Below are positions 7,357 to 58,046 of a stretch of DNA of 64,000 nt, piece by piece. A program made the position numbers and the translations under genes. Each line of letters starts with the position of its first letter. The stretch's first letter is position 1. Under the pieces are notes generated by a model, which made no database searches, was not told the origin of the DNA, and was given only the letters and a program-made list of their open reading frames with translations. Origin of the DNA: Oscillospiraceae bacterium (lineage in GTDB: Bacteria > Bacillota > Clostridia > UBA1381 > UMGS1253); assembly GCA_015068725.1 (NCBI GenBank), contig SVKA01000004.1:1-64000 (forward strand), in the 5' to 3' direction.

Positions 7357-7386
7357 AAAGAAATTCGTCAAATGACGAATTTCTTT
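7357..7386. terminator. Bidirectional intrinsic terminator between convergent yitT and ilvE
   Basis: AAAGAAATTCGTC-AAAT-GACGAATTTCTTT, perfect 13-bp arms. Confidence 0.75.
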
Positions 7387-38817: not shown

Positions 38818-38847
38818 AAAGCCGTGTCGTACGACACGGCTTTTTTG
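38818..38847. terminator. Bidirectional intrinsic terminator
   Basis: AAAGCCGTGTCGTACGACACGGCTTT, 26-bp perfect palindrome then T-run. Confidence 0.85.
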
Positions 38848-53842: not shown

Positions 53843-53905
53843 AAGCTTTATATTCCTTTCAAACAGATTGCATAATTTCACACATCAATTTTATCATAAT
53901 AAAAA

Positions 53906-53945
53906 AATAATGCAATATAATATTTTCCCGTTATATTGCATTATT
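53906..53945 (-). terminator. Intrinsic terminator downstream of the HAD-GtrA gene
   Basis: AATAATGCAATATAA/TTATATTGCATTATT, perfect 15-bp arms; T-run on minus strand. Confidence 0.8.
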
Positions 53946-53980
53946 TTCCTGATGATTGTACAGTAGAGATGATGCTTACA

Positions 53981-56495: not shown

Positions 56496-57110
56496 CTATT
56501 TGGTTCGTATAATTTTGATTGAATATATAACAGATATAATGATGTAGGGTATCAGTAAAATAAGAGCGATAATCGCAAAGGCGGGCGGTAAAAAGATTGA
56601 TATAAGAAACAAAATTCCCATAATGACCGTTTCAAAACCTATAAAACGGTTTATTTTTCTTGCCTTCTGTGTATCTATATCATAATTTTTTACATAGTCA
56701 AGTTTTGGCAGATAGTTTCCTATCACAATCAGTATACAGCCCACAAGAAGAGCCACAACCCTTCTTATATCGACAATCCATCCAAGGCTGAAGCCGATCG
56801 TTATTGTTTGTAAAACAATTGACATAACGGGGATAATCCACTTTGTCACTTTCTCAAATTTTGGGCGTTCGCCGTGCTTGTGGGCGTTTATATCGTATAC
56901 AAAGCAGGAAAAAAATTGTAAAACAGCCATCAAAAATGGCAGTCCGAATACGACAAAGCTCTTTGATGCAAAGTTGTCAGGCTCGTTATTTATATTAAAA
57001 TGAATTGCCATTGTATCGGGAAGATTCTCCCACAATGCTACACCCAAAAGAATGGGCAAAAGACATACAAAAGATGTTACAATAAAACTTTTCCATTTTA
57101 TAAATTTCAT
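56496..57110 (-). CDS. sdpI: SdpI family protein (DUF1648 N-terminus)
   Basis: LPDTMAIHFNINNEPDNFASK; multi-TM; ATGA overlap with sdpR-like gene. Confidence 0.88.
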   Translation of the reverse strand: MKFIKWKSFIVTSFVCLLPILLGVALWENLPDTMAIHFNINNEPDNFASKSFVVFGLPFLMAVLQFFSCFVYDINAHKHGERPKFEKVTKWIIPVMSIVLQTITIGFSLGWIVDIRRVVALLVGCILIVIGNYLPKLDYVKNYDIDTQKARKINRFIGFETVIMGILFLISIFLPPAFAIIALILLIPYIIISVIYSIKIIRTK

Positions 57111-57376
57111 TGTTTATTACCTCCCAGTTTATAAATCCATGATAACACATCTTCAAATACAGACGTGTTTAATTCATAGTAAATAAAATTTTTGCATTTT
57201 TGTTCTGCAATAAGGTCTGCACTTTTTAGCTTTGACAGATGATATGAAACTGTTGCGCCCGTCAGTTTGAACTGCTCTGCAATTTCCCCTGCAGACTTTC
57301 TGCCGCTCTTTAACATTTGCAATATATCCCTGCGCACAGGGTCGGATATTGCCTTGAATGTTTCATTCATTCCCAT
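57107..57376 (-). CDS. sdpR: ArsR/SdpR-type winged-helix autorepressor
   Basis: AISDPVRRDILQMLKSGRKSAGEIAEQFKLTGATVSYHLSKLKSADLI. Confidence 0.92.
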   Translation of the reverse strand: MGMNETFKAISDPVRRDILQMLKSGRKSAGEIAEQFKLTGATVSYHLSKLKSADLIAEQKCKNFIYYELNTSVFEDVLSWIYKLGGNKQ

Positions 57377-57392
57377 TTTATCACTCCTTTAG

Positions 57393-57424
57393 CAATCTAT
57401 TTAGAAATATTTCTAAATAGATTG
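57393..57424 (-). promoter_or_regulatory. Perfect 32-bp palindrome, candidate SdpR operator overlapping the -10
   Basis: CAATCTATTTAGAAATATTTCTAAATAGATTG. Confidence 0.75.
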
Positions 57425-57449
57425 TATCACGGGCAATATATAAAGTCAA
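57421..57449 (-). promoter_or_regulatory. Sigma-A type promoter for sdpR-sdpI
   Basis: Minus strand TTGACT-N17-TACAAT. Confidence 0.75.
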
Positions 57450-57481
57450 GACCTATTTAGAAAAAAATCTAAATAGGTCTT
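57448..57481 (-). promoter_or_regulatory. Second inverted repeat abutting the -35, candidate distal SdpR operator (or bioY terminator)
   Basis: AAGACCTATTTAGA-AAAAAA-TCTAAATAGGTCTT, perfect 14-bp arms, same CTATTTAGA core. Confidence 0.6.
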
Positions 57482-57503: not shown

Positions 57504-58046
57504 TTAGAATAATTCTGATTTAGTATGTTTTAATATAATCAGGGCAATATATGCTGCCATAGCTGCTTTGATAATATCGAAAATTATAAATGGGAGAGCG
57601 CCGACTAACAGCGCAGAAATAAAAGTTGTTTTAGTCAGCAGGGCAAGGTGTGCACTTCCAAATAAATAGCATACAAAAAGCGATGCGAGCATACTTAAAA
57701 ATAATTTAAGAAAGCCGACGGATTTTTTGTCCCGACTAAAAAAACTAATTATAATTGTTATGAAAGGATACGAGAGTATGTATCCGCCAGTAGGGCCAGA
57801 AAGAATGGCTAATCCGCCTGACAACCTTCCAAATACAGGCAAGCCGCACGCTCCAATAAGTATGTATGCAAGCATTGATATTGAAGAATATTTTGGACTG
57901 AGCAGTGCACCACACAAAAAAACGCCAAAAAGCGACATGCTTATTTGCACCTGACCTGCCGGTATTGGTATTACAAGTTGTGCACATATGGCAGTGAGTG
58001 CACAAAATACCGATGAAAAGAGTAATTGTTTTGTTTTAAAATTCAC
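57504..58046 (-). CDS. bioY: Biotin transporter substrate-binding component BioY
   Basis: LVIPIPAGQVQISMSLFGVFLCGALL; GCGLPVFGRLSGGLAILSGPTGGYILSYP-type motif (ACGLPVF in this protein). Confidence 0.94.
   Translation of the reverse strand: MNFKTKQLLFSSVFCALTAICAQLVIPIPAGQVQISMSLFGVFLCGALLSPKYSSISMLAYILIGACGLPVFGRLSGGLAILSGPTGGYILSYPFITIIISFFSRDKKSVGFLKLFLSMLASLFVCYLFGSAHLALLTKTTFISALLVGALPFIIFDIIKAAMAAYIALIILKHTKSELF

Follow-up and report, generated by a model that had tools for sequence, protein, structure and literature searches.

The sdpR locus and its inverted repeats

The window, meaning the whole stretch of DNA analyzed here, covers positions 1 to 64,000 of the forward strand of contig SVKA01000004.1 (assembly GCA_015068725.1, Oscillospiraceae bacterium). 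It contains the following genes, promoter elements, and repeats:

57107–57376, minus strand: sdpR, ArsR-type winged-helix repressor of the SdpR family, 89 amino acids (NCBIfam NF033789; Pfam HTH_20/HTH_5)
56496–57110, minus strand: DUF1648 membrane protein, 204 amino acids, in the SdpI position (PF07853, 2.7e-18); 4-bp overlap between its start and the sdpR stop
57504–58046, minus strand: bioY (PF02632), co-directional gene upstream of sdpR, outside the conserved unit
57444–57449, minus strand: −35 box TTGACT, a promoter match; orthologs keep TTGACN
57421–57426, minus strand: −10 box TACAAT with TG before it, a promoter match; orthologs keep TATAAT abutting O1
57397–57420, unstranded: O1, candidate proximal operator with core CTATTTAGAAATATTTCTAAATAG, immediately next to the −10 box; about −6 to +18 relative to the inferred start
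57453–57476, unstranded: O2, candidate distal operator with core CTATTTAGAAAAAAATCTAAATAG, upstream of the −35 box at a distance of 3 bp; about −62 to −39
57393–57424, unstranded: perfect 32-bp palindrome (16+0+16) around O1, with CAAT in common with the −10 box
57448–57481, unstranded: perfect inverted repeat (14+6+14) enclosing O2; read-through from bioY would give an RNA hairpin of −19.4 kcal/mol

The repressor scored 123.5 bits against NF033789, for which the curated cut-off is 100, and therefore belongs to the SdpR family. The protein encoded downstream gave no match to the SdpI domain (PF13630) even at E ≤ 10, and sdpR was followed by a relative of the DUF1648 gene in 79 loci. None of the 95 genomes of the order, the bacterium's own among them, had a match to the SdpB exporter (model TIGR04033), while the B. 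subtilis control was detected.

A sequence-only reading of this region had placed a minus-strand promoter, TTGACT-N17-TACAAT, upstream of sdpR. This promoter was confirmed at 57449–57444 and 57426–57421, with a spacer of 17 bp and a position between O1 and O2. The coordinates of the two long inverted repeats held as well: the repeats have in common a 24-bp core, CTATTTAGA-N6-TCTAAATAG, and the two copies start 56 bp apart. The 32-bp palindrome was indeed perfect and overlapped the −10 box as described. The distal repeat was likewise right to be placed over two bases of the −35 box; however, in the direction of transcription these are its first two bases (TT) and not its last two, and the O2 core itself stops 3 bp short of the box.

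Both inverted repeats are genuine and not products of chance. Perfect repeats with arms of at least 14 and loops of at most 10 nucleotides occurred eight times in the real window, compared to none in 30 first-order Markov copies, and among these eight the O1 and O2 repeats are the pair with a common core. The longest perfect inverted repeat of the window (17+10+17) lies at 53904–53947, and another (14+2+14, AAAGAAATTCGTCAAATGACGAATTTCTTT) at 7357–7386. At 38818–38843 there is a perfect, loop-free 13+0+13 palindrome, AAAGCCGTGTCGTACGACACGGCTTT, which is not terminator-like and is a possible operator.

Conservation and sdpR restriction of the twin sites

The comparison covered about 100 distinct regions upstream of sdpR relatives, many of them from metagenome-assembled genomes and all from loci that are related rather than independent. 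The block O2–3 bp–TTGACN–17 bp–TATAAT–O1 was present with exact spacing in 70 of the 75 loci that had both sites and a recognized promoter. The remaining five deviated by 1 bp in one segment, and O1–O2 spacings of 55 and 57 bp occur. SdpR relatives carrying the block had about 41–86% protein identity, and the sites were still found upstream of relatives with as few as 41 of 89 identical residues. The twin-site layout was observed in Gemella, Anaerofustis, Clostridium, and many Oscillospiraceae and Lachnospiraceae, the Lachnospiraceae loci mostly having the variant CTATTTAAA/TTGAAATAG. In these relatives the conserved block adjoins unrelated upstream genes. Information content was about 1.6–1.85 bits per base in the operator halves, compared to 0.25 in the 17-bp promoter spacer and 0.24–0.39 in the flanks. 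A search for the motif upstream of sdpR homologs, as suggested by the sequence-only reading, thus found the repeats kept in sequence, number, and position, and the lack of conservation that it had also considered was not seen. About 12 loci had O1 only and four had O2 only, with an unchanged promoter register; two sites are therefore not essential everywhere. A degenerate twin-operator promoter was also noticed before an SdpR-like gene on the Streptococcus agalactiae plasmid pR31-snf2-M, where no SdpI-like gene is annotated beside it.

The sites were restricted to sdpR. Allowing up to three mismatches, no further copy of the core was found in the bacterium's own 1.58 Mb genome, and all exact core matches in 95 genomes of the order were located at sdpR. 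An additional near-exact pair was found in a genome with a single, weak protein hit; there it preceded an sdpR start truncated by the end of a contig, which the protein search had missed. Among other genomes of the phylum, the full O1+O2 pair was found in 0 of 398. On the Ruminococcus albus plasmid pRUMAL02 the pair is located upstream of a three-gene operon (intramembrane protease–sdpR–DUF1648), in which sdpR is the second gene; the pair therefore marks the operon promoter and not the sdpR start codon. A wider regulon was considered and rejected, as the own genome had no other core and the lone one-mismatch matches in the order (genomes G043, G046, G052, and G074) stayed at the level of a reversed-pattern control.

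Most of the phylum-wide, more distant SdpR loci examined (NF033789) keep one TTAGA-N6-TCTAA-like site upstream, with half-sites as in the window; unlike the window, these single-operator loci showed no further copy ahead of the −35 box. Operator variants TTTAGA and TTTAAA split with the sequence of the recognition helix (GATVSYHL versus PQALSYHL), although this covariation is essentially one main family split and may reflect shared ancestry. The sites are A+T-rich, which might fit a regulator other than SdpR binding to both of them. Across genomes, however, only sdpR operons carry the site, and the operator variants follow the SdpR clades, so that another regulator is very improbable.

Proposed autorepression through O1 and O2

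Taken as sequence evidence, these results point to the region very probably being the autoregulated promoter of the sdpR-DUF1648 operon, with two SdpR dimers bound at the twin sites, and autorepression of sdpR via both repeats is strongly supported as a prediction. Assuming a transcription start at 57414, O1 would extend from −6 to +18 and O2 from −62 to −39. Since this start cuts O1, O1 cannot form a hairpin in the sdpR transcript and should act as DNA. The UP-element is the stretch just upstream of the −35 box where the alpha subunits of RNA polymerase dock; this and the footprint positions used here are those of bacterial promoters in general. Each 24-bp site would be bound by an SdpR dimer at its TTAGA-N6-TCTAA palindrome. 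At O1 the dimer would occupy the edge of the −10 box and the start region, while a second dimer at O2 would lie just upstream of the −35 box, on the putative UP-element position. With both sites filled, polymerase would be shut out at both ends of its footprint. Upon a signal, the membrane protein encoded next may sequester SdpR and so lift repression, by analogy with B. subtilis.

The sequence-only reading had proposed cooperative autorepression, for which it considered DNA looping or a dimer-of-dimers; either would connect O1 with O2 over the promoter. Its autorepression part is strongly supported, as the sites are conserved at sdpR orthologs and restricted to sdpR. The looping or dimer-of-dimers part is not supported by the geometry. 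A spacing of 56 bp that hardly varies between two equal sites would speak for looping; yet 56 bp corresponds to about 5.3 helical turns, so the two dimers would face different sides of the DNA, and a loop this short is stiff. Moreover, the promoter parts simply add up to 56 bp (24+3+6+17+6), partnerless sites hold the same promoter register, and the spacings of 55 and 57 bp noted above occur. The window's pair thus showed neither the helical phase nor a spacing kept independently of the promoter, and looping is clearly unlikely. Occlusion of polymerase from both ends by two SdpR dimers, at O1 and O2, would be the simplest mechanism.

O2 as a possible hairpin, and comparison with known systems

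The distal repeat had also been suggested to double as the bioY terminator. It lies 22 bp past the bioY stop and was scored as terminator-like. However, no match to BioY was found upstream of sdpR in any other sdpR locus searched, so that this suggestion is not supported. As the sole purpose of O2, unrelated to SdpR, bioY termination was rejected and is most improbable: O2 is conserved upstream of sdpR without bioY, stays 3 bp from the −35 box, and matches O1 in sequence. The distance from O2 to the −35 box is constant whatever lies upstream, which makes O2 a part of the promoter.

A broader version is that O2, besides being an operator, serves as an RNA hairpin or intrinsic terminator for transcription arriving from the upstream gene, so that one sequence would be operator and insulator and also include part of the −35 box. 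The first and third bases outside the O2 core paired across the dyad in 47 and 37 of 81 loci, compared to 21 and 22 in column shuffles, although kinship among the loci inflates these stem counts. All four Watson–Crick pair types were present in the outer stem, and T-richness after TTGAC was higher where this stem had at least 5 bp (p = 0.0014). Three O1-only loci upstream of sdpR (L013, L022, and L051) lacked the operator core in the O2 slot but had a hairpin there. Outer stems of at least 5 bp were found in 13 of 34 loci with a co-directional gene lacking its own terminator, against 1 of 14 and 4 of 25 in the other upstream contexts; while Fisher's test on 13/34 and 5/39 gave p = 0.015, a rank test was not significant (p = 0.17). 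In the window itself the O2 hairpin is stable (−19.4 kcal/mol, z = −7.2), but the stem is followed by GACTTTATAT without a T-run, whereas some relatives have T-rich tails. The outer stem of O2 is missing from many loci and can occur at divergent ones, and hairpin-templated mutation could perfect the O2 palindrome without selection. The O1 flanks showed no excess of pairing, in a comparison with little power because one side is the fixed −10 box. A hairpin or terminator role of O2 in general has suggestive support, and we consider it a tentative possibility. Somewhat more doubtful still is the full threefold function, in which O2 would be repressor operator, UP-element position, and an RNA hairpin that stops transcription coming in from the gene upstream; the 3′ arm of this hairpin would contain the 5′ part of the −35 box. 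If this were true, the block would amount to a portable, self-insulating promoter under autorepression that could sit behind any gene.

Whichever of these additional roles O2 may have, the proposed autorepression by SdpR at two sites can be compared to known systems. Two operators around one promoter are known from gal (OE/OI) and CopY. In gal, a distance of about 114 bp separates the sites, which loop; here, by contrast, both sites lie inside the polymerase footprint or at its edge, 56 bp apart. As for ArsR/SmtB repressors such as CzrA and SmtB, a winged-helix dimer is expected on a palindrome at its own promoter, while the best score of the window's protein, unlike CzrA and SmtB, is to the SdpR subfamily. 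In B. subtilis, SdpR is an autorepressor, and SdpI sequesters it at the membrane in the presence of the SDP toxin (PMC1626106). The locus described here resembles B. subtilis sdpRI in that a gene for an SdpR-family repressor directly precedes a membrane-protein gene. It differs in that the order is without the SdpB exporter, the membrane protein has DUF1648 without an SdpI-domain match, and the promoter is framed by two candidate operators.

In the open literature searched (subscription papers were outside its scope), no SdpR operator sequence was found. The twin sites provide a concrete candidate operator for a large autorepressor family, by which SdpR-controlled genes become findable by sequence, and a compact promoter design with a spacing kept across a wide range of Firmicutes. 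The SdpR switch also exists where the known SdpB toxin exporter does not. On a Staphylococcus simulans plasmid (L177), an SdpR–SdpI pair was observed convergent with genes for an SDP-family toxin and SdpB.
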